Assembly: GCA_020248265.1 (NCBI GenBank)
Contig: JADCHX010000004.1
Span: 167,473 to 231,472, forward strand
Direction of reading: 5' to 3'
DNA: 64,000 nt
Origin: Rhodocyclaceae bacterium
GTDB taxonomy: Bacteria; Pseudomonadota; Gammaproteobacteria; Burkholderiales; CAIKXV01
A program made the translations under genes and the position numbers. Below are positions 5,879-31,420 of this stretch, piece after piece. How positions within the stretch are numbered: the stretch's first letter is position 1; each line of letters opens with the position of its first letter. Under the pieces are notes generated by a model, which did no database searches, was not told the DNA's origin, and saw nothing but the letters and a program-made list of their open reading frames with translations.

Positions 5879-6883
5879 TCACTGCACCTCGATCTTGCGT
5901 GTCGCCACGATGCGCCGCCATTTGTCGATCTCGCCGCGTACATGGCTGTCGGCCTCGGCCGGCGTGGTGAGCTTGAGCGAGCCGCCGAGTTCGGCGAACA
6001 GCTTGCCGATGTCCGGCTGCTTGAGCACCGCATGCAGTTCACGGTTCAGGCGCTCGACGATCGGCCGCGGCGTCGCACGCGGCGCGGCGATGCCGGCGAA
6101 CGACGTGACTTCATAGCCGGGCAGCGTCTCGGCCATCGTCGGCGTATCGGGCAACTGTGGCGAACGTTCCAGCGAGGTGACCGCCAGCGCCCGCACGCGG
6201 TTGGCCTGGATCTGCGAGAAGGCACCGGTCAGCGTGCCGAAGATCACGTCCAGGCGCCCGGCCATCAGCTCGGTCATCGGTTCGGCACTGCCCTTGTAGG
6301 GCACATGCAGCATGTCGGTGCTGGCCATCGAGTTGAAAAGCTCGGTGGCGAGGTGGAACACCGAGCCGATGCCGACCGAGCCGTAATTCAGCTTGCCGGG
6401 ATTGCGCCGCGCGAGGTCGATCAGCCCGGCGGCATTGCGCACCGGCGAGTCGTTGCGCACGACCACCACGAACGGATAGGTGATCACGACCGTCACCCAG
6501 GCGAAGTCCTTCACCGGGTCGTAGGGCAGCTTCGACGCGGTGGCCGCGACCGAGGTGAACGCGCCGCTGGCGAACAGCAGCGTGTGTCCGTCGGGCAGCG
6601 ACTTCGCCACCGCAGCGGTGCCGATCATGCCGCCGGCACCGGGCCGGTTGTCGACCAGCACGTTCTGGCCGAGGCGCTCCGCCAGCCGTGGTGCGATCGT
6701 GCGGCCGACCATGTCCGTGTTGCCGCCCGGCGCGAACGGCGACACCATGCGCACCGGGCGAGAGGGATAGGCGACGGGTGCGTCGGCTGCCGTAGCGTGG
6801 CCGACGAAGGCGGGCATGGCCGTCACTGCGGTGCCTGCGACGAGTGCCAGGCCGACACGGCTGAAGGTGAGCGAACGGGACAC
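5879..6883 (-). CDS. Bug/TctC-family solute-binding protein
   Basis: Periplasmic binding protein, 334 residues from the GTG at 6883. The signal sequence (SRSLTFSRVGLALVAG...ATAADAP) leads to RPVRMVSPFAPGGNTD, DNRPGAGGMIG, LPDGHTLL and HVPYKGSAEP. The frame stays open into the upstream nitroreductase gene, but the GTG sits ten bases past that gene's stop and is immediately followed by the signal peptide. It is co-directional with the nitroreductase and probably co-transcribed. No adjacent permease. Confidence 0.92.
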   Translation of the reverse strand: MSRSLTFSRVGLALVAGTAVTAMPAFVGHATAADAPVAYPSRPVRMVSPFAPGGNTDMVGRTIAPRLAERLGQNVLVDNRPGAGGMIGTAAVAKSLPDGHTLLFASGAFTSVAATASKLPYDPVKDFAWVTVVITYPFVVVVRNDSPVRNAAGLIDLARRNPGKLNYGSVGIGSVFHLATELFNSMASTDMLHVPYKGSAEPMTELMAGRLDVIFGTLTGAFSQIQANRVRALAVTSLERSPQLPDTPTMAETLPGYEVTSFAGIAAPRATPRPIVERLNRELHAVLKQPDIGKLFAELGGSLKLTTPAEADSHVRGEIDKWRRIVATRKIEVQ

Positions 6884-6893
6884 GAGTGCTTGC

Positions 6894-7448
6894 TCAGCCG
6901 AACCGGTTCCAGACAACGATCTCTTCGGCCGGCTTGCGCGTGCGCGGCTTGCGATCCTTGGCTGCAACTTCTTCCGGCAGGTCTTCGATGCGGCCGCGAT
7001 AGCCGGCCACCACCAGCGCGACCGGACGCATCGGTGCCGGGATCGCGAACGCCCTGGTGACCTTGTCGAAATCCCAGCCGATCATCGCGTGCGTGGTGAG
7101 CCCGAGTGCGCAGCCCTGGATCAGCAGGTTCTCCAGCGCGAGGCCGCAGTCGAGCAGGAACGACTGCTGGCCGTTGCGGTCGGGCTGCTCGTCCGGGTTG
7201 CCCACCACCACCATCTTCAGCGCGGCGGCGGCAGCCCAGGCGCGGTTACCTTCGCTCAGCGCATCGTCATAGGCCGCGATCGACGCGGCATCCTGCGCGA
7301 TCAGCAGCCGCCACGGTTGCTTGTTGTTCGACGACGGTGCCCAGCGGAACGCTTCGATCAGCGACGCGACGACCTCCGGCTCCAGCGTCCGGTTCGTGAA
7401 GTGCCGCTCGCTGCGGCGGTCGACGAGGGCTTGCAGGATCGTTGGCAT
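6894..7448 (-). CDS. nitroreductase family protein (FMN oxidoreductase)
   Basis: 184-residue FMN-dependent NAD(P)H oxidoreductase of the nitroreductase fold. The N-terminal RRSERHFTNR is the phosphate-binding signature; APSSNNKQPWR is the flavin-contacting loop. LLIQGCALGLTTHAMIGWD and the C-terminal ALVVAGYRG complete the domain. Such enzymes reduce nitroaromatics, quinones or enones. It lies directly upstream of a Bug binding-protein gene, suggesting reduction of an imported aromatic or unsaturated acid, which is inference only. Confidence 0.92.
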   Translation of the reverse strand: MPTILQALVDRRSERHFTNRTLEPEVVASLIEAFRWAPSSNNKQPWRLLIAQDAASIAAYDDALSEGNRAWAAAAALKMVVVGNPDEQPDRNGQQSFLLDCGLALENLLIQGCALGLTTHAMIGWDFDKVTRAFAIPAPMRPVALVVAGYRGRIEDLPEEVAAKDRKPRTRKPAEEIVVWNRFG

Positions 7449-9709: not shown

Positions 9710-10954
9710 TCACCCGAACAGCGAGCGCCCCTCCATTCCGTCGCAAGGCTGGCCGAGGAAACGCAGCAGCGTGGGCGCAATGTCCGGCAGGCTGGTGGAA
9801 TGCTCGATCACTGCAGGGGCGACCTGCGGATGCATCAGGGCAAGGAACGGCCGCGTTTCATCCGGGCCGATGCCGCCGTGGTGGCCGCATCCGATCTCGG
9901 GTGCCTTCTCGCCATCGGCGACCAGCCAGCGATTACCCGGTATCCCGCGTGCATTGGGTGCCGTATCGACCGCGGCAGCCAGCGCATCGTCGCCGCCCAG
10001 CCCCAGTGCGCGCAGGTCGTCGACATCGAGGATGCGTCCGGCCCATGGCTCGTGCGCCATCTCTTCGATGCGTTCCAGCAGGATCGCCCGGGCATCCGGC
10101 GTGGAGTAGATCAGCCCGGCGGTGCCTTGTGATGCGACCGCGATGCGTCCCTGTTCGAGTTCGTTCGCCAGCCCCTTCGACGCCAGCCAGCGTCCGACAT
10201 GGATCGAGTCGCCGATCGCCTCGTGTCCGTGGTCGGAGCACAGCCCCACCAGGATGTCGGCGCGCTCGCGCGCCCGCTCGACCGCGCCCAGCGTCTTCTC
10301 CACCAGCGAGTCGACGACGCGCAATGCCTCGAGATGCTCGGGACCACCCACAGCCTGGTGGTGCAGGGTCAGGTCCGGGTTCGCCAGCCACAGGATGCCT
10401 ACCGCGATGTCGTTGTCCGGCACGACCTGCGTGCAGAAGCGTTCGGTCATCACGCGATCGCCGTCGAGATCGTGGCTGATGGCCAGATGATCCGCACCCT
10501 GCAGCGCGACACCGCCGGGTCCGTACGATCCCGATCGATGCAGCACCCAGCCGCTGTGCTCTGGATCGAGGAAGTACGCTGCGCCGGCAGAGACGTTCGA
10601 ATACGCGACCTGGCGCAGGCCAGCGGCGGCCAGGCGGTCGGCCATCGTGCGCCGGCGCAGTGCGTGTCCGGTGACCGCGCGCAGGTGCGCGACGAAGCCG
10701 GGGAGCCCGACGTCGCTGACCACCAGCCGGCCGTGTTCCATCAACGCGACCTGGTTTCCGTACAGGCCATGCGACCCGGGGAAGCATCCGGTCGCGATGC
10801 TGGCGGCCGACACGCGGGTCACCGAAGGGAAGACCGCACGGTGGTCGGCTGGGCGAAGCCCCATGCGCAGGCAGCCATCGATGAAGGGCGTGTGTCCTTT
10901 GCCGAGCCAGTCGCGGCCGAGCCCGTCGCAGACGACCAGGATGACGCGTCTCAC
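9710..10954 (-). CDS. alkaline-phosphatase-superfamily phosphodiesterase/phosphatase
   Basis: 414-residue member of the type I phosphodiesterase/nucleotide pyrophosphatase branch. Candidate metal and catalytic residues, in order: D10 in VVCDGLG, nucleophile T46 in FPSVTRVSA, the PDLTLHHQ segment (D194, H198), SDHGHE (D241, H242) and CGHHGG (H358). These match the six-ligand two-zinc scheme. No signal peptide is seen. The start is GTG. It lies 39 bp downstream of a Bug protein gene on the same strand. Phosphonoacetate hydrolase belongs to the same superfamily and the window ends with a phosphonate locus, but I see no specific support for that. Confidence 0.85.
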   Translation of the reverse strand: MRRVILVVCDGLGRDWLGKGHTPFIDGCLRMGLRPADHRAVFPSVTRVSAASIATGCFPGSHGLYGNQVALMEHGRLVVSDVGLPGFVAHLRAVTGHALRRRTMADRLAAAGLRQVAYSNVSAGAAYFLDPEHSGWVLHRSGSYGPGGVALQGADHLAISHDLDGDRVMTERFCTQVVPDNDIAVGILWLANPDLTLHHQAVGGPEHLEALRVVDSLVEKTLGAVERARERADILVGLCSDHGHEAIGDSIHVGRWLASKGLANELEQGRIAVASQGTAGLIYSTPDARAILLERIEEMAHEPWAGRILDVDDLRALGLGGDDALAAAVDTAPNARGIPGNRWLVADGEKAPEIGCGHHGGIGPDETRPFLALMHPQVAPAVIEHSTSLPDIAPTLLRFLGQPCDGMEGRSLFG

Positions 10955-12217: not shown

Positions 12218-12688
12218 ATGCCTACCTTGCCTATCGACGCCCTGCGCCGCGGATTGGCCGCTGCCGCCTTTCTCCTCCTCTCGACGGCTGGCGTCGCCAT
12301 TCCCGTGGCCGCATCTGCTGCCGACACGTTGATCACCGAAGACGAAGCACGACTGCCGGATGCGCCGTCTGCCGCTCCTACCCGTGGCATCTCCCGCGGG
12401 CCGGGGGTCCGGCTGTCCACGCCGGAGGAGGTCACCGCGCGCGGGTTCCCGCTGCAGTTCGCGCTCGACCCGCGCGGGGGTGCACGCATCGATCCCGACA
12501 GCCTGAAGGTGACCTATCTGAAGCAGCCTGCAGTCGACCTGACTCCGCGCATGAAGCCCGGCTTCAACGGCAACCAGATCTCGCTGGCGCGCGTGGTGGT
12601 GCCGGCAGGCGTGCACCCGATCCGGGTGAGCGTGCGAGACACCGAAGGCCGTGAAGGCGCACTGACCTTCATGCTGCGTGCGCGGTGA
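12218..12688 (+). CDS. exported Ig-like hypothetical protein (caspase operon gene 1)
   Basis: 156-residue secreted protein. A signal peptide of about 35 residues ends AASAADT. Residues 40-70 are Pro/Arg/Ser rich. Residues 75-156 alternate short beta-like stretches (FPLQFALDP, LKVTYLKQPAVDL, ISLARVVVPAGVHPIRVSV, ALTFMLR) as in an immunoglobulin-type sandwich. I recognise no named family. Its last four bases (GTGA) contain the start of the zinc-ribbon gene, so translation is coupled. Probably a periplasmic partner of the downstream proteins. Confidence 0.75.
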   Translation: MPTLPIDALRRGLAAAAFLLLSTAGVAIPVAASAADTLITEDEARLPDAPSAAPTRGISRGPGVRLSTPEEVTARGFPLQFALDPRGGARIDPDSLKVTYLKQPAVDLTPRMKPGFNGNQISLARVVVPAGVHPIRVSVRDTEGREGALTFMLRAR

Positions 12689-13449
12689 CTGGCACGCAAC
12701 TCGGCTGCCCCTACTGTGCCGGGGACCTTGCCACAGGCGCGATGGCCTGTCGGCATTGCGGCCGGATGGTCGGGCACCTGTTGCCGCTGCTGGTGCGCCA
12801 GTCTGAACTGTCGGCGGAGGTCACCGTACTTCGGGAAGAAGTCGCGAGACTGAGGGACGCTGCATCGGCGCCGGCAACGCGGGTGGCCGCGGCCGTTCCG
12901 CTGGACACGCCGCAGGAGCCGCGCCGGACCGTAGCCACCCAGCCGGCCAGGCTGGCTGCAGCCGTCGTCACGGTCGTCGCGGCGTCTGCCCTGCTGCACT
13001 GGCTGCTGCTGTTCGTGTACGACGCACCGCCGATGTTTCTGCGCATCGTCACGCTGCTGGTACCCCTCGCGCTGGGCCTGCGCGTGAGCGGGTCGGGCGG
13101 CGCAAGCCTCGCCGCCCATGCGCTGGCCTCGGCCTGCTGCGGCGTCGCATCGGTGGCGGCGATGCTCGCCGTCACCCACCTGATCGACGGCGTGCCGCTG
13201 CTGCCGCAGGACCTGCGCGAGATGCGCGAAGCGCTCGAGTACTGCGCATCGATCGCACTCGCCTTCCTCACCGGCTACCTGGTGATGAACGGCCTGCGCC
13301 GGGCACGACAGCGCCCGGTGCCTGCGGCCTCGCACGGCGCACTCGTCGGCTATGCACAACGCTTCCAGCAACTGGCCGGGCTGCTCTCGCCGATCTGCGC
13401 CGGTGGCCTTGCCCTTTACTCCGGCCTCAAGAGCCTCGGTGGTGGATGA
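12685..13449 (+). CDS. zinc-ribbon, coiled-coil, multi-pass membrane protein (caspase operon gene 2)
   Basis: 254 residues from a GTG overlapping the previous stop. The N-terminus carries a zinc ribbon, CPYC (C8, C11) and CRHC (C22, C25), ten residues apart. A leucine-patterned helix at about 33-60 (SELSAEVTVLREEVARL) looks coiled-coil. Four hydrophobic segments follow (about 95-115, 118-132, 140-160 and 190-208). With no signal peptide, the ribbon should face the cytoplasm, making this the operon's candidate membrane adaptor. Family not recognised. Confidence 0.75.
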   Translation: MTGTQLGCPYCAGDLATGAMACRHCGRMVGHLLPLLVRQSELSAEVTVLREEVARLRDAASAPATRVAAAVPLDTPQEPRRTVATQPARLAAAVVTVVAASALLHWLLLFVYDAPPMFLRIVTLLVPLALGLRVSGSGGASLAAHALASACCGVASVAAMLAVTHLIDGVPLLPQDLREMREALEYCASIALAFLTGYLVMNGLRRARQRPVPAASHGALVGYAQRFQQLAGLLSPICAGGLALYSGLKSLGGG

Positions 13450-13453
13450 ACCC

Positions 13454-15343
13454 ATGAATGCAGCGTACCTGCCGCAGGCCACGTGCCGGCATCGTCTCCT
13501 TTCGCGCGAATGGCTCGCGCTGCTGTTGCTTGCCTGCCTGTTCGCGTTCGCCGCGCGCCCGGCGCTGTCCCAGCCGGCGGTCGGCAGCACCGTGCGCGGT
13601 GCGCTGGCGCTCGGCTGGGGGGCGAGCGTGCCGTTGCCCGAGGGCGACTGGCGGGTCACGGCAACGCCGGTGATCAACCAGCCGAACATGAAGTACGAAG
13701 TGATCGTGCTGCGCCACCTGCGCGATGACGCACCGATCCCGCTGCTGGTGGTCCGGCACATCCGCGACAACCGCACCAGCGGCTGGCCGCCGCTGCCCTG
13801 CGATGCCAGCCCCGCGCGCGAGGGCAGCACGGAGTTCATGCGCACTGCGCACGGGTCCGGTTCGAACGACGTGGTGAACCGCTGCTCGCGCGCATGGCCG
13901 CTCGGTGACTTCGCGCAGTGGCGCGCACGCGCAGTGCCGTCCGATCCCTGGTGGCATGAACTGGGTCCTGCGGCACTCGCCATCGAGCCTTCGGCGAACC
14001 TCACCGGCGTGCTGCTGGTGCAGCTGTCGCTGCAGGAACACCTGAAGCGGCGCCTGTACGTCGAAGCGTTCGTACGGCCGCCGCAGGGTCGTACACCCGC
14101 CCAGTTCCGCGAGGCCGTGGTCTCCGGTCGGGGTGGCGTCGAGGCCGAGATGTTCTCGACCTGGACCGCGGTCTACATGACCTCGATGCAGCTGTCCTTC
14201 CTGAACCTCACGCCGCGGCCGGTGATCGCGCTCGGCTGGGCTACCGGGCCCGCCACCGCAACGGCTGCCGCGCCGGTGCGGCCAGCCGCCGCCCAGGCAG
14301 CGGTCGGCGGTGCGGCACCCACCACGGGCAGCACGCCGGCTGCCGCTAAACCGCCGCCCGGCGGAACGGTTGCAGCGGCTCCGGCGTCGACGCCATCGAC
14401 GCTGCCTGCCGCGCCCGCGACGGCAGCGACCGCCACGGCAACGACCGCAGCGACCACCGCCACGGCGGTGGCCCCGTCGGCGGCGATCGAACAGCAGAAC
14501 CGCGAGCTGCAGGCGCAGCTCGACCAGATGCGCAAGGCGCTCGCCCAGCTGCAGGCCACGGTGGAGCAGGGTGCTGCCGCCCAGAAGGCCCCGCCACCGC
14601 AGGCCGAGGCTGCCCGGCCGTTCGTGCCGCGGCCACCCGCGCCCAACCGCAAGGCGCTGGTGATCGGCAACGACCGCTATACCCACGTGGCCCCGCTGGC
14701 CAACGCGGCGGCCGATGCCGAGTCCATGGCACGCACGCTGCAGGCCGTCGGCTTCACCGTCACCCGGCACCTCAATCTCGAAGAGAAGCAGTTCAAGCAG
14801 GCCCTGCGCGATTTCCGGATGACGGTTCAGGGCGGCGACGAGGTGATCTTCTTCTTCGCCGGCCACGGTGTGCAGCTCGGTGCCGCCAACTACCTGCTGC
14901 CGACCGACATCCGGGCCGACCATGAAGAGCAGGTGAAGGACGAGGCGATCCCGCTGCAGCGCATCCTCGACGACCTCAACGAGCGCAAGGCGAAGTTCGC
15001 GCTGGCGGTGGTCGATGCCTGCCGCGACAACCCGTTCCAGTCGAAGGGCCGCAGCATCGGCGGACGCGGCCTGGCGCCGACCTCGGCGGCCACCGGGCAG
15101 ATGGTGATGTACTCCGCCGGCGCGGGGCAGCAGGCACTCGACCGCCTCGGGCCGAACGACCGGGAACGCAACGGGCTGTTCACTCGCGTGCTGTTGCGCG
15201 AGATGCTCCTGCCTGGCCAGTCGGTGGATCGTGTGCTGCGCAACGTCCGCAACGAGGTGGTGAAGCTCGCGCGCGGCGTCGGCCATGAACAGACGCCGGC
15301 CCTGTACGACCAGGCCATCGGCGAATTCTTCTTCGCGCCATGA
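13454..15343 (+). CDS. exported caspase-like (peptidase C14) protein with N-terminal extension
   Basis: 629-residue predicted exported cysteine protease. Residues 1-38 form a signal sequence. Residues 40-250 are an unrecognised domain. Residues 255-350 are an Ala/Pro/Thr linker. Residues 355-385 look coiled-coil (RELQAQLDQMRKALAQLQA). The caspase fold starts near 395 (RKALVIGNDRYTHV). The catalytic dyad is visible: His471 in FFFAGHGVQLG and Cys523 in VVDACRDNPF. The ATG at 13454 begins the signal peptide; open frame further upstream overlaps the previous gene. It ends ATGA, coupled to the second caspase gene. Confidence 0.88.
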   Translation: MNAAYLPQATCRHRLLSREWLALLLLACLFAFAARPALSQPAVGSTVRGALALGWGASVPLPEGDWRVTATPVINQPNMKYEVIVLRHLRDDAPIPLLVVRHIRDNRTSGWPPLPCDASPAREGSTEFMRTAHGSGSNDVVNRCSRAWPLGDFAQWRARAVPSDPWWHELGPAALAIEPSANLTGVLLVQLSLQEHLKRRLYVEAFVRPPQGRTPAQFREAVVSGRGGVEAEMFSTWTAVYMTSMQLSFLNLTPRPVIALGWATGPATATAAAPVRPAAAQAAVGGAAPTTGSTPAAAKPPPGGTVAAAPASTPSTLPAAPATAATATATTAATTATAVAPSAAIEQQNRELQAQLDQMRKALAQLQATVEQGAAAQKAPPPQAEAARPFVPRPPAPNRKALVIGNDRYTHVAPLANAAADAESMARTLQAVGFTVTRHLNLEEKQFKQALRDFRMTVQGGDEVIFFFAGHGVQLGAANYLLPTDIRADHEEQVKDEAIPLQRILDDLNERKAKFALAVVDACRDNPFQSKGRSIGGRGLAPTSAATGQMVMYSAGAGQQALDRLGPNDRERNGLFTRVLLREMLLPGQSVDRVLRNVRNEVVKLARGVGHEQTPALYDQAIGEFFFAP

Positions 15344-17052
15344 ACCGCACCGATCGCGTGTTCCCGAACCTCGTCCCGGCCATGACCGGAAACGCCCTGC
15401 GCGCACGTGGCGCGTTCGCGGCCCTGATGGCTGCGGTCGTGCTGCTGTTGCTCGTGCCTGCGACGACAGCGCTGGCCCAGCCATCCGGTGCGCGTACCGC
15501 ACTCATCATCGGCATCAGCCGCTATGCGGATCCGTCGGTGACGCCGCTGCGCGGTGTCGAGCACGACATGGCGAGCGCTCGTGCGATCGCACGCGCGATG
15601 GGCGTACCCGACACCGGCATGCGGGTGGTGCGCAACGCCGAAGCAACCAAGGCCAGCCTGCTCGCCATCCTGCGCGAGTTCGGCGACCGGGTCGGCGACG
15701 GCTCGCGCGCACTGGTCTACTTCTCGGGCCACGGCACCCGCTACTTCGATCCGCAAGCCGGCGGCTGCATCGAGGGCCTGCTCACCTACGACGGCCAGGT
15801 GATCACCAACACCGAACTGGCGCAGGCCACGCAGTCGGCCGGGCAACGCGCGGACAAGCTGGTGGTGATGCTCGATGCCTGCCACTCCGAAGGCGTGCTG
15901 CCCGGGCAGGCTGCCGCGTCGCGCGGACTCGGCCCGGCACTGGTGCCCAAGTTCAGTTCGCCGCCCGGTGGCGCTTCGGTTGCTGCCTGTTCGATGGTGT
16001 CGAACTACCGCACGCGCGCACTGTTCACCGAGTCGACCCGGCTCGGTGCGCTGCGCGAGAACGTGGTGATGATCGCCTCCGCGCGCCCGGACGAAGTGAG
16101 CTTCGACGACCCGAACAACGGCGGCGTGGCCACGCAGGGTATCCGCGACTGCATGCTCGGCAAGGCACGCGACCTGGATTCCTCGGGCGCGGTGAGCCTG
16201 GAGGAGATCCGGCGCTGCGCACAGTCGTTCGTGAACGAGCGACTGCGTCCCTACCCGAACCTCTCGCCGCACACCATCACCCTGGCCGGCAACCGCAACC
16301 TGGTACCGGTCCCAGTGGTGCGTCCTCCGGCGGCGCCCGTCCAGGCCCCGATCGCCCAGGCGCCTGCCCAGACTGCACCGACGCCGCCCCCGGCGCCCCC
16401 GGCACCGCCGCCGGCCACCCCGCCTGCCCCGGCGGTGCCTGCGCCACCCGTCGTACCCGCCCCGCCCCCGGTACAGGTGCCAGCCCAGGTGCCAGCGCAG
16501 GTACCCGTAGCCGTGGCGCCGAGCCCGGAGCCGGAGCCGCCTCCTCCGCCACCTCCGCTGGCCTCGCTCGCGACCCTGCAGGATATCGCCGCGCAGGCCG
16601 ACCCGAGGCGCACGCCCCAGGTCAGTGGACAGTCGCGCGCGCTGCGCATCGGACGCGACTTCCTCGACCTCACGATCACGCCGCCACGCGATGGCTTCCT
16701 GTACGTGGTGCTGCTGGGCAGCGATGCCAGCAGCTTCTACCTGCTGTTCCCGAATGCACTGGACAGGGACAACCGTGTGCGCGCCGGCCAGCCGGTGCGG
16801 CTGCCGCGCGAGGACTGGCGCATCCGCGCCGCCGGGCCAGCCGGCACCAACCAGTTGCTGGTGGTGGTCTCGGATGCACCTCGCACGCTGGAACGCCTCA
16901 GCCGCTCGAAGCCGGATGCGAAGTCTCCCTTCACCTTCGCGCTGAACACGCTGGGTGGACGCGGCGCACTGTTCGATTTCCTGACCTCGGCACCGGCCGG
17001 CGGCACCGAAGCCTTCGGTGCGCAACTGTTCACCGTGGAGGAGGTCCGATGA
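15340..17052 (+). CDS. exported caspase-like protein with proline-rich linker and DUF4384-like C-terminus
   Basis: 570 residues, domains in the reverse order of its neighbour. A signal region (1-48) leads straight into a caspase fold: TALIIGISRYAD, His131 in YFSGHGTRYF, Cys181 in MLDACHSEG. Residues 310-430 are strongly Pro/Ala rich, a wall- or envelope-spanning type of linker. About 440-560 resemble DUF4384 (LRIGRDFLDLTITPPRDGFLY, YLLFPNALDRDN). A stretch DLDSSGAVSLEEI near residue 285 looks like an EF-hand-type calcium loop. Stop and the next start share ATGA. Confidence 0.88.
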   Translation: MNRTDRVFPNLVPAMTGNALRARGAFAALMAAVVLLLLVPATTALAQPSGARTALIIGISRYADPSVTPLRGVEHDMASARAIARAMGVPDTGMRVVRNAEATKASLLAILREFGDRVGDGSRALVYFSGHGTRYFDPQAGGCIEGLLTYDGQVITNTELAQATQSAGQRADKLVVMLDACHSEGVLPGQAAASRGLGPALVPKFSSPPGGASVAACSMVSNYRTRALFTESTRLGALRENVVMIASARPDEVSFDDPNNGGVATQGIRDCMLGKARDLDSSGAVSLEEIRRCAQSFVNERLRPYPNLSPHTITLAGNRNLVPVPVVRPPAAPVQAPIAQAPAQTAPTPPPAPPAPPPATPPAPAVPAPPVVPAPPPVQVPAQVPAQVPVAVAPSPEPEPPPPPPPLASLATLQDIAAQADPRRTPQVSGQSRALRIGRDFLDLTITPPRDGFLYVVLLGSDASSFYLLFPNALDRDNRVRAGQPVRLPREDWRIRAAGPAGTNQLLVVVSDAPRTLERLSRSKPDAKSPFTFALNTLGGRGALFDFLTSAPAGGTEAFGAQLFTVEEVR

Positions 17053-17573
17053 AATCCAGTCTCGCCCCGGCCTGGCTGCTGCTCGCCTGGCTGGCACTGC
17101 CCGCTGCTGCACAGCCTGCTGCCGCACCGCCGGCCACTGCACAACCCACCGGCAACGCGACCGCGAACGACCTGGTCGATCGCCTGGCGCCGCCGCCGGC
17201 CGCTACCCGCGGCCTGCGCAACCTGGTGCCCGAGCCGCGCAGCGTCGACCTGGTGGTGCTGTTCGACTTTGACTCGGCGCGCATCCAGCCGGCCAGCCTG
17301 CCGCTGCTCGACAGCCTTGCCACCGCGATGCGCAGCGATCGCCTGGCGACGCTGCGCTTCCTGGTGGAGGGCCATACCGACGCCAAGGGCAACGCCGCCT
17401 ACAACCAGAAGCTCAGCCAGCGCCGGGCCGAATCGGTAATCGGGCACCTGGCGTCCGTGGGCATCGAGCGCACGCGGCTGAGCGCCGAAGGACGCGGCGC
17501 CGCCGACCTGCTGCGCAAGGACCAGCCCTATTCGCTGGAGAACCGGCGCGTGCGCATCACCGCGATGCCCTGA
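17049..17573 (+). CDS. OmpA-family peptidoglycan-binding protein (caspase operon gene 5)
   Basis: 174-residue envelope protein: signal peptide to about residue 22, Ala/Pro-rich spacer, then an OmpA C-terminal domain at 65-174. Seen are VVLFDFDSARIQP, VEGHTDAKG with Asp111, and the NQKLSQRRAESV helix with Arg125/126, the residues that clamp diaminopimelate of peptidoglycan. There is no lipobox and no beta-barrel, so it is probably periplasmic and wall-attached. As last gene of the coupled operon it would anchor the caspase proteins to the wall (inference). Its end lies 10 bp from the convergent GntR gene. Confidence 0.9.
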   Translation: MKSSLAPAWLLLAWLALPAAAQPAAAPPATAQPTGNATANDLVDRLAPPPAATRGLRNLVPEPRSVDLVVLFDFDSARIQPASLPLLDSLATAMRSDRLATLRFLVEGHTDAKGNAAYNQKLSQRRAESVIGHLASVGIERTRLSAEGRGAADLLRKDQPYSLENRRVRITAMP

Positions 17574-29109: not shown

Positions 29110-30015
29110 TCAGCATTGCACTAGCCGACCGATAAACTTGACAAGGCATGGAGGGACGGGCGTGCTGGACGCAAACCTACTCATCGGTAATTGAGCAGGA
29201 TCTCCAGGAAGTTGAGAATCGCTCTCCTCGAAAAGAAGCGGGTGCTGACTTTTGAGGTCCATCTCGAGAGCCTTCAACCAAACGCGAAGCATGCTCAACA
29301 AATACTTACCTCTGCACTTGAGCAGCGAGGGTAACTCATCGAATTCTGACCGGAGCTTTTGGTAGCTCTCAGGCGTGGGTTTTCCCTCAAGCACCACTAT
29401 GTCTGAAACAGTCTCATAAGCCCGAAAAACAGAGTCAGCGTTAATCGTGACAATCTCGGACGCTCTGGATGGTTTCGCCAGAACACTTATCTGAAGCCTC
29501 CTTGCGACAAAGAGCTCGAGATTGACAGGCTCGCAATGTGCAACAAACCCCGAAACGATCTCCTTAAACGTTTCGCGAAGGCGCCTGCGCTCAGCAATGC
29601 GTCCCGAACGCCTGAATTCATTACGCAAGATACTGTCGACTACCTCTTCTGTACAAAGGAGGTTTTCTATTGAATACGCCCCCAGTTCATAGACATGCGG
29701 ATGCGGTAGTGTTGCGATGTCAAAATCTCGATCCACGAAAAAGAAAATTTTGTCCAGTAATGGGTCGCTGCTATCCATCAAAATCTGATGATAGGCCAAC
29801 AGCTGTTCTTTCCCTGCACCATGCATCGGTTCAAATCTCGTACATGCGCCAATTCGCTTTATCCACTCGTCGTACACGGGGATGTCTTCCGGCCCTTCAT
29901 ACACAAAGATGAGTATGTCGGGGTCTTCGCCACGAATTTTCAGAACTTTTAGCTTTAGAACCGATGCGCCTTTGCGGCTAGCCCGTAGCTTCTCAACTAG
30001 CGAAGCCATCGACAT
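29110..30015 (-). CDS. DUF4435 (Toprim-like) protein, AriB-like effector of a PARIS-type pair
   Basis: 301-residue protein with the DUF4435 plan: ILIFVYEGPEDIPVYD supplies the Toprim glutamate (E40), FFFVDRDFD the DxD acids (D95, D97), and AYSIENLL follows. In PARIS (phage anti-restriction-induced system) the DUF4435 protein AriB is the toxic effector released by the ATPase AriA. This gene follows the ATPase gene and overlaps it by 23 bp, the expected order. Codon use is AT-richer than the rest of the window, indicating acquisition. A gap of about 190 bp with no gene separates it from the IS66 relic. Confidence 0.78.
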   Translation of the reverse strand: MSMASLVEKLRASRKGASVLKLKVLKIRGEDPDILIFVYEGPEDIPVYDEWIKRIGACTRFEPMHGAGKEQLLAYHQILMDSSDPLLDKIFFFVDRDFDIATLPHPHVYELGAYSIENLLCTEEVVDSILRNEFRRSGRIAERRRLRETFKEIVSGFVAHCEPVNLELFVARRLQISVLAKPSRASEIVTINADSVFRAYETVSDIVVLEGKPTPESYQKLRSEFDELPSLLKCRGKYLLSMLRVWLKALEMDLKSQHPLLFEESDSQLPGDPAQLPMSRFASSTPVPPCLVKFIGRLVQC

Positions 30016-31420
30016 TCTCCCCGGTTCTCTCCATCCTTAGTCCTACGGTGAACTGATCCAACTCGTTTTCGAAGATGAAGGGTGAGTGAGTGATTGCAAG
30101 CATCTGAGTGACTGATCCGCTCGCCATTACGTCGGGTAGGACTTTGCGTTGCCAATCAATAGATAGCGACAATTCCGGTTCGTCGATCAGAACGACCTTA
30201 GAGCCCTTGTAGAGATAAAGCTTCGCCATCAACGAGACGATTTGCTTTTCTCCGGAAGACAGAGCATCCAGTGGAACAATGCAGTTGGCCCAGGAGTTCT
30301 CCACAACAACCTTAAGTGTTCTTGGGTCAAAAGCTAACCGCTTCTCGTCACTGGACATCGTCAGATAGCTGTTGCAAACCGTGACAAACTGTTCGATTCT
30401 TTGTTCTGTAGTTTTCGTTTGATCAATGACCGAGTTCAGACGACTCAGGAAGTACCTCAAAAACTCGAAGTCTTTCGAGTGGATTTCTCCAGAATCGTAG
30501 AGCGTTTCGATGTTTTCGAAAATTTGTCCGAGATTGTTTTCTACCCGTCCGAGGCGTCCCAAAAAAAGCGAAAGTGATCCGATGTCTGGAAGTGCATCAA
30601 TTCCTAAGGGAAGTTGGAAAGATTGGCCCTTAAGCATGTCGTTTAGAATACGCGCGCTCAATCCGCGATACCCGAAATTGGAGGTGCGCTCAATTTCCTC
30701 GGACAGCTCACCGAGACGAGCTTCGATGTCGCTAAGCCCAAACGCAATGCCCTCATACGAATAGTCGTTTTTTTCGCGGGTCGGTGCATACCAATTGGTT
30801 CTGATCGCCTCCCGCTTTCGACTCGATCGCAAGAGCGGTCGTTCGATCCTTCGATAGGTCGGCAGAAAAACCACATCAGCTCTTCCAATTAGGCCGCGAA
30901 GATCCGAAGCAATTTCTTTTGCTCGCTCGCTAAGTGACGAATTCAAGAGTGCATGTGCCTCATCGAGCGCTCGCTTTATCTCTTGGTAGTCGCCCGGTAT
31001 GGTCAAGTAGAGTTGACTTATAACCGGTGTCTGTAGCAACCGGTCAAAGTTCGCCGGAATGTACTCATTCTGCAAAAAGTCTAGAAGTGCCTCCTCTGGG
31101 AGTTCCGCACTTTTGGCTAGAGCCTTGACCGATTCAAGCCCAGCGCCAGCCGCCGAACCAAAGTCCTCGCGAGTCATCCGAATTGCGTCTTCACGAGCAA
31201 GAAACTTGCATTCAAGCGCAGAGAACGGTAGCGCGGCTAAGCGGTGGAATCGCCTTGTAAGAAAGGCATTGAGCGCGCTCAATACTGTCGTCTTGCCCGT
31301 GCCGTTCTCCGCGACGATTACTGTGGCTGCTCCAGCAAACTGGACAGTAATGTCTTTGTATCCGTGCACGCCACGCAATGTGAAGTATTGCAAAAGCGGC
31401 GGAGTTTCTTGGTTTGGCAT
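29993..31420 (-). CDS. AAA (ABC/SMC-like) ATPase, AriA-like sensor of a PARIS-type pair
   Basis: 475-residue ATPase. Walker A is ENGTGKTT (38-45), the ABC-type signature is LSSGEKQ (387-393), Walker B is VVLIDEPE (409-416) and a switch His lies in ITHSPF (H445). About 300 helical residues separate the two halves, as in AAA_15/AAA_21 proteins. With the overlapping DUF4435 gene it matches the two-gene PARIS layout, where the ATPase senses phage anti-restriction proteins and holds AriB. OLD-type systems are excluded because the Toprim part is a separate gene. AT-rich codon use marks it as foreign. Confidence 0.8.
   Translation of the reverse strand: MPNQETPPLLQYFTLRGVHGYKDITVQFAGAATVIVAENGTGKTTVLSALNAFLTRRFHRLAALPFSALECKFLAREDAIRMTREDFGSAAGAGLESVKALAKSAELPEEALLDFLQNEYIPANFDRLLQTPVISQLYLTIPGDYQEIKRALDEAHALLNSSLSERAKEIASDLRGLIGRADVVFLPTYRRIERPLLRSSRKREAIRTNWYAPTREKNDYSYEGIAFGLSDIEARLGELSEEIERTSNFGYRGLSARILNDMLKGQSFQLPLGIDALPDIGSLSLFLGRLGRVENNLGQIFENIETLYDSGEIHSKDFEFLRYFLSRLNSVIDQTKTTEQRIEQFVTVCNSYLTMSSDEKRLAFDPRTLKVVVENSWANCIVPLDALSSGEKQIVSLMAKLYLYKGSKVVLIDEPELSLSIDWQRKVLPDVMASGSVTQMLAITHSPFIFENELDQFTVGLRMERTGENVDGFAS

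Follow-up and report, generated by a model that had tools for sequence, protein, structure and literature searches.

Bacterial relatives of the caspases are mostly discussed as cytosolic enzymes of stress, death or CRISPR pathways, and the locus described here raises the question of what two such proteases do if they are exported and act together with a protein that binds the cell wall. The locus is situated in a stretch of 64,000 nucleotides from a Rhodocyclaceae bacterium (contig JADCHX010000004.1, positions 167,473 to 231,472; hereafter the window), in which five translationally coupled genes (g1 to g5, encoding the proteins P1 to P5) occupy positions 12218-17573, all on the + strand. The two caspases, P3 and P4, are combined with a small beta-rich protein (P1), a membrane protein (P2) and an OmpA-type protein (P5). 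The answer favoured here, held with moderate confidence, is an accessory, envelope-located and wall-tethered caspase module serving as a conditional proteolytic switch.

The frames and junctions given by an earlier reading of the letters without database searches (the sequence-only reading) were correct: g1 and g2 overlap by GTGA (12685-12688), g2 and g3 are separated by a gap of 4 bases (13450-13453), and g3/g4 (15340-15343) as well as g4/g5 (17049-17052) overlap by ATGA. Purifying selection acts on each of the five genes (ratio of nonsynonymous to synonymous substitution rates, dN/dS, 0.10-0.34 against orthologues of the same genus) and the block is kept in other genomes, such that its existence goes beyond chance; that the five proteins form one unit is supported. 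Both C14 domains of the source genome are found in this operon, and one CHAT gene is located elsewhere in the genome. A scan for sigma-70 promoters and terminators gave nothing above chance, and no foreign base-composition signature was found at the block.

The caspases, the wall anchor and their partners

P3 (13454-15343, +) consists of an N-terminal domain (P3N, 13571-14239), an Ala/Pro-rich linker, a coiled coil and a C-terminal Peptidase_C14 domain (14648-15310; PF00656, residues 399-619, E = 6e-32, 111.5 bits against a curated cut-off of 21.4). P4 (15340-17052, +) exhibits the opposite domain order, as had been noticed before, with an N-terminal Peptidase_C14 domain (15493-16281; residues 52-314, E = 2e-18, 67.6 bits against the same cut-off), a proline-rich linker and a C-terminal DUF4384 (16645-16878; Pfam, residues 436-513, E = 3e-14). 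The catalytic dyads lie where they had been proposed, i.e., His471 (codon 14864-14866) and Cys523 (codon 15020-15022) in P3, and His131 (15730-15732) and Cys181 (15880-15882) in P4, and are invariant in the aligned homologues of either protein, so that both belong to family C14 by profile score as well as by catalytic residues. Equally invariant is an Asp two residues before the catalytic Cys (D521 and D179, respectively). In metacaspases and in MALT1, this Asp is part of the pocket for the basic residue, and its presence would place P3 and P4 among the metacaspases, orthocaspases and paracaspases with basic specificity at the substrate position called P1 (not the protein P1). The CHAT profile (PF12770) had no match on P4 and reached 21.6 bits on P3, under the cut-off of 24, and the model of EACC1-associated caspases (NF047832, cut-off 140 bits) yielded 54.4 and 43.6 bits for P3 and P4.

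Concerning P3N, two conserved Cys, possibly forming a disulfide, are found, and the domain is kept in three families of the order; it has no Pfam match, and a structure model calculated from three sequences was useless (predicted local distance difference test, pLDDT, 49). Lipoprotein anchoring of P3, considered on account of LLAC in the signal segment, was ruled out, the Cys being absent from two orthologues of the same genus (genomes G001 and G003). At a locus of another genome (G038, L033 7039-11296), two tandem C14 genes exhibit 53-58% identity to the caspase domain of P3; the first of them is fused to an FGE-sulfatase domain, and a P3N match was not found at this locus.

Within the C14 match of P4, the loop DLDSSGAVSLEEI (16171-16209, +) matches the EF-hand pattern PROSITE PS00018 exactly, which bears out the EF-hand-like loop suspected earlier. 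The pattern is conserved in 11 of 12 P4 homologues versus 6 of 129 background proteins, a background that itself includes some P4 genes, and P4 is probably calcium-gated by this loop.

P5 (17049-17573, +) possesses the N-terminal motif DLVDRLAPPPAATRGL and an OmpA peptidoglycan-binding domain (17259-17528; PF00691, residues 71-160, E = 4e-17, 63 bits against a cut-off of 27.2), in line with the peptidoglycan clamp that had been assigned to it. It is not of the Pal/YiaD/YfiB lipoprotein type, for which the best score was 77.5 bits at an NCBIfam equivalog cut-off of 175, and has no lipobox. A motif D-hh-x-x-L-x-P...TR recurs at the N-terminus of P5-like proteins in the window and in four other genomes (G421, G427, G439, G024), and in a looser form elsewhere.

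P1, P3 and P4 each contain one N-terminal hydrophobic segment in a hydropathy scan, and the segment of P5, LLLAWLALPAAA, is shorter and falls under the scan threshold. In all four proteins a signal-peptidase-like site follows the segment, no lipobox was found, and the combination of hydrophobic segment and Ala-x-Ala or Ser-Gln-Pro type site is repeated in the orthologues. The signal peptides earlier ascribed to both caspases thus held up, as far as N-termini can tell, and P1, P3, P4 and P5 are predicted to be exported. An envelope location of the module is well supported.

P1 (12218-12688, +) is a small protein in which a signal peptide would be followed by a probably immunoglobulin (Ig)-type, beta-rich domain of about 120 residues, with the motifs LITEDEARLP (N-terminal), RGPG and YLKQPAVDLT. 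It had been called Ig-like, for which there was no sequence match; a low-confidence model from three sequences (pLDDT 63) is beta-rich and weakly resembles Ig-type beta-sandwiches in Foldseek (best E = 6e-3, e.g., CrdA/CopC and PKD domains). P2 (12685-13449, +) begins with a putative CPxC/CxxC zinc ribbon, followed by a region with an Arg-rich stretch and a short coiled coil and then by several transmembrane segments with a conserved loop (VPLLPQ..RE.RE..EY), which its homologues retain in the form VPLxP..RE.RE..Y. The ribbon of the window copy remains below the Pfam threshold (PF13248, 14.3 bits against 27), whereas a Variovorax homologue passes it (28.4 bits) and the four Cys (C8, C11, C22 and C25; 12706-12759) are invariant in seven homologues. 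According to the positive-inside rule, i.e., to its charge distribution, the ribbon probably faces the cytoplasm; for the role of a sensor that had been attributed to it, no result in favour was obtained.

Distribution of the block and of its parts

A search for the gene order across genomes, proposed with the sequence-only reading, found the five genes in the same order in four other genomes of the genus (G001, G003, G010 and, across two contigs, G007), i.e., in 4 of 4 orthologous five-gene copies; in a further one (G002), P4 and P5 are situated at a contig end. Thus the order is not limited to one strain, the caspases have export-type N-termini and their relatives keep the catalytic Cys and His, and none of the findings that would have spoken against the earlier reading was made. 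The block of the window, like that of G007 and G010, is placed between a gene for a Bug-type binding protein (BugB/BugA) and a GntR-type regulator, and its direct neighbours are metabolic (Bug binding proteins, the GntR regulator, acyl-CoA dehydrogenase). The same flanks are joined directly, at contiguous sites lacking the block, in G009 and G004; in G003 they are joined as well, with the block about 5.5 kb away, and in G001 the block is found elsewhere with unrelated flanks. These three chromosomal positions, together with the empty sites in other genomes, indicate that the block was inherited, gained, lost or moved as a unit, and by sequence comparison it is an accessory unit. No match to P3 or P4 was found in G004, G005, G006, G008 and G009, most of which are incomplete drafts.

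Outside the genus, a first P1 profile built from five sequences of the one genus found nothing in 185 genomes of the class. By tblastn on plasmids, P1 was detected in Variovorax and Bradyrhizobium, and a profile broadened with these plasmid homologues revealed P1 in seven more genera when 300 genomes of the order were searched. All five protein families are present in G421, from a second taxonomic family of the order, with P1-P2-P4-P5-P1' on one strand, P3 divergent and, beyond P3, a histidine kinase with a 7TMR-DISMED2 domain and a response regulator. In a third family (G427), P4-P5-P1'-P3 are followed by kinase and regulator genes, and in G398, P4, P1' and the start of P5 are found at a contig end.

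On both plasmids, P1 has as its neighbour a divergent CHAT-TPR protein whose N-terminus resembles a signal peptide, and in Variovorax a P2 homologue follows P1 directly. Five further genomes (G372, G463, G375, G325 and G408) possess P1 beside or at most about 2.3 kb from a CHAT gene, mostly with P2; in G325 the locus spans contigs, whose join is assumed. Altogether, P1 occurs near an exported caspase-fold protease in all eight other genomes with P1 and on the two plasmids. The probability that all eight P1 loci from beyond the genus would have a C14 or CHAT gene within 5 kb by chance is about 1e-16, or 1e-11 if each family is represented by a single genome, an estimate which uses the C14 and CHAT gene counts per genome and, by treating genomes as independent, is weakened by shared ancestry; the tie of P1 to two different protease families is unaffected by this assumption. 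Since P1 and often P2 adjoin exported CHAT proteins too, these two proteins appear to be partners of exported caspase-fold enzymes in general. Calcium gating as a common property of the P1-linked CHAT proteins was ruled out, an EF-hand match being found in just one of them. At one locus (L087), two P1 paralogues of different subtypes are situated at 6876-7322 and about 10323-10740, of which one starts with LITEEEA like the window copy and the other does not.

Genes for P4-like proteins have P5-like OmpA genes as neighbours in three genomes (G439, G450 and G406) and CHAT genes in three as well (G439, G450 and G096). Among nine plasmid loci of P5-like OmpA proteins, taken from the top of the match list and not at random, a caspase or CHAT gene was found within about 8-10 kb in seven and type VI secretion system (T6SS) genes in five. 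As P4-type DUF4384 and P5 recur together and P5-like proteins share their N-terminal motif, docking of the P4 DUF4384 to P5 is suggested; in two kinases of T6SS type (G024 and G025), a transmembrane segment precedes DUF4384, which fits a periplasmic domain. A single region of G450 (L119 2949-18783) combines genes of the C14-DUF4384 and CHAT types with two additional C14 genes, and also encodes a tubulin-like protein (PF13809), a DUF4384 protein separate from these, short proteins rich in Cys and an OmpA protein.

Mode of action and competing explanations

As to docking, calcium gating, specificity, trigger and outcome, the wall-tethered module might work as follows. P1, P3, P4 and P5 would be exported to the periplasm, and P2 would reside in the inner membrane with its ribbon probably on the cytoplasmic side. 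P5 would grip the peptidoglycan and, with P1 and P2, hold both caspases at the envelope, P4 being tied to P5 by DUF4384 and probably gated by calcium at the EF-hand loop, and P3 being targeted by its own P3N. Once triggered, most likely by damage to the envelope or by contact with something foreign, the caspases would cut proteins of the envelope or proteins coming in from outside, probably after Arg or Lys residues, and the module would act as a conditional switch and not as a housekeeping step. The cascade that had been envisaged, with one caspase activating the other, received no result in its favour. A wider proposal, tentative and possible rather than probable, is that P1 and P2 constitute a general adaptor pair for exported C14 and CHAT proteases and, with P5, a so far undescribed class of calcium-gated and peptidoglycan-tethered caspase machines, which would work in the envelope of Gram-negative bacteria instead of the cytosol and would spread from genome to genome as cassettes.

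Several points weigh against the switch module. Its distribution is patchy (some absences may stem from incomplete drafts), the gene order of G421 differs and G427 has no P2 next to the block, so that the full set of five is not obligatory. Furthermore, the export call is based on N-terminal sequence, P3N has no usable model, the topology of P2 is deduced from its charges, and an interaction among the five proteins is deduced solely from gene order.

The patchy presence, the three positions and the empty sites within one genus would also fit a defence cassette against phages or competitors, whose caspases would kill the cell or seal it off when an attacker gets through the envelope, and caspase-type effectors are known from other defence systems. 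In addition, an AAA_15/AAA_21 ATPase and a DUF4435 protein about 12 kb from the block (window 29113-31420, -) match AriA and AriB of PADLOC, i.e., a PARIS-like anti-phage pair, in a region whose codon pattern is weaker than that of its surroundings. However, PADLOC calls no system for the block itself, where nothing matched beyond its generic caspase model and, weakly, OmpA/MotB; the block contains no nuclease, cyclase, NTPase sensor or CRISPR gene, its direct neighbours are metabolic genes and its proteins are predicted to be exported, and a defence function appears unlikely.

Less likely again is a part in a secretion or contact apparatus, in which P5 and DUF4384 would belong to T6SS-type regulation and the caspases would process exported or surface proteins. 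It draws on G024, where a P5-type OmpA gene stands with a T6SS FHA protein, a PP2C phosphatase and a DUF4384 kinase, adjoined by a protein of 2139 residues with a two-partner secretion (TPS) domain, YDG and FG-GAP repeats and a C-terminal C14 (L061 851-12002), apparently a caspase carried by two-partner secretion. Resembling clusters are present in Paracoccus, Ruegeria, Mesorhizobium and Rhodobacter, and in G427 (L094 1-8961) sctR/sctS/sctT-like type III export genes, judged by eye, lie just downstream; none of five genomes of the genus, however, has a secretion gene adjoining the block.

Periplasmic protein quality control or nutrient proteolysis by two digestive proteases at the wall would agree with exported proteases having intact dyads and a wall-binding partner, but is improbable, as caspase-type enzymes are usually site-specific and not digestive, and as the EF-hand, the coiled coil, P3N and P1/P2 are conserved together with the proteases. 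That the caspases are cytoplasmic and their hydrophobic N-termini membrane anchors or artefacts of start choice is scarcely credible: a single N-terminal helix may be an anchor, a caveat raised for this group in PMC3501461, but the segment and cleavage-type site are repeated in the orthologues of P1, P3, P4 and P5, P5 can bind peptidoglycan only from outside the cytoplasm, two Cys are conserved in P3N, and the P1-linked CHAT proteins have similar N-termini.

Comparison with known systems

Exported caspases and caspase operons with OmpA are already known from the survey of metacaspases in 1463 genomes by Asplund-Samuelsson et al. 2012 (PMC3501461); the link to the partners P1 and P2 is new. This survey lists 46 single-domain metacaspases with N-terminal helices, possibly signal peptides, OmpA in 14 of 217 caspase operons, and 20 operons with more than one metacaspase, the latter only in alpha- and deltaproteobacteria, Bacteroidetes and cyanobacteria. 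The statement of the sequence-only reading that studied bacterial caspases are mostly cytosolic goes too far in view of these likely signal peptides and OmpA operons. Like the metacaspases and orthocaspases described there, P3 and P4 possess C14 domains with intact His and Cys; unlike in those operons, as far as the accessible part of the survey goes, P1, P2 and the CHAT link come in addition. DUF4384 is mentioned for a clade of pseudo-orthocaspases (PMC6426788), and in the open-access literature on DUF4384, periplasmic metacaspases and CHAT, neither P1 or P2 nor the cassette was found described.

Among solved structures, the best sequence match of P3 is the MALT1 paracaspase (E = 2e-8), with which it shares D-x-C-R at the catalytic Cys, whereas P3 has no death or Ig domains, is predicted to be exported and has other partners. 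The only solved sequence match of P4 is the Geobacter caspase GSU0716 (PDB 3bij, E = 3e-4), which does not have the architecture with EF-hand and DUF4384.

The block and its recurring parts indicate a caspase machine of the bacterial envelope that has received little study, and the cassette offers defined subunits and residues for probing a caspase-type system outside the cytosol. The T6SS clusters with FHA, PP2C and DUF4384 kinase combine P5-like OmpA, DUF4384 and C14 as the block does, but contain kinase, phosphatase and secretion genes absent from it, and P1, P2 and P3N were not seen there. The exported CHAT-TPR proteases (PF12770), likewise of caspase fold, share the partner genes P1 and often P2, but belong to another protease family and carry TPR where the block has P3N or DUF4384, and an OmpA gene was not seen at the P1-CHAT loci examined. 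The block thus brings together two caspases that would act at the envelope, a wall anchor, a conserved calcium loop and partners common to this second caspase-fold family.

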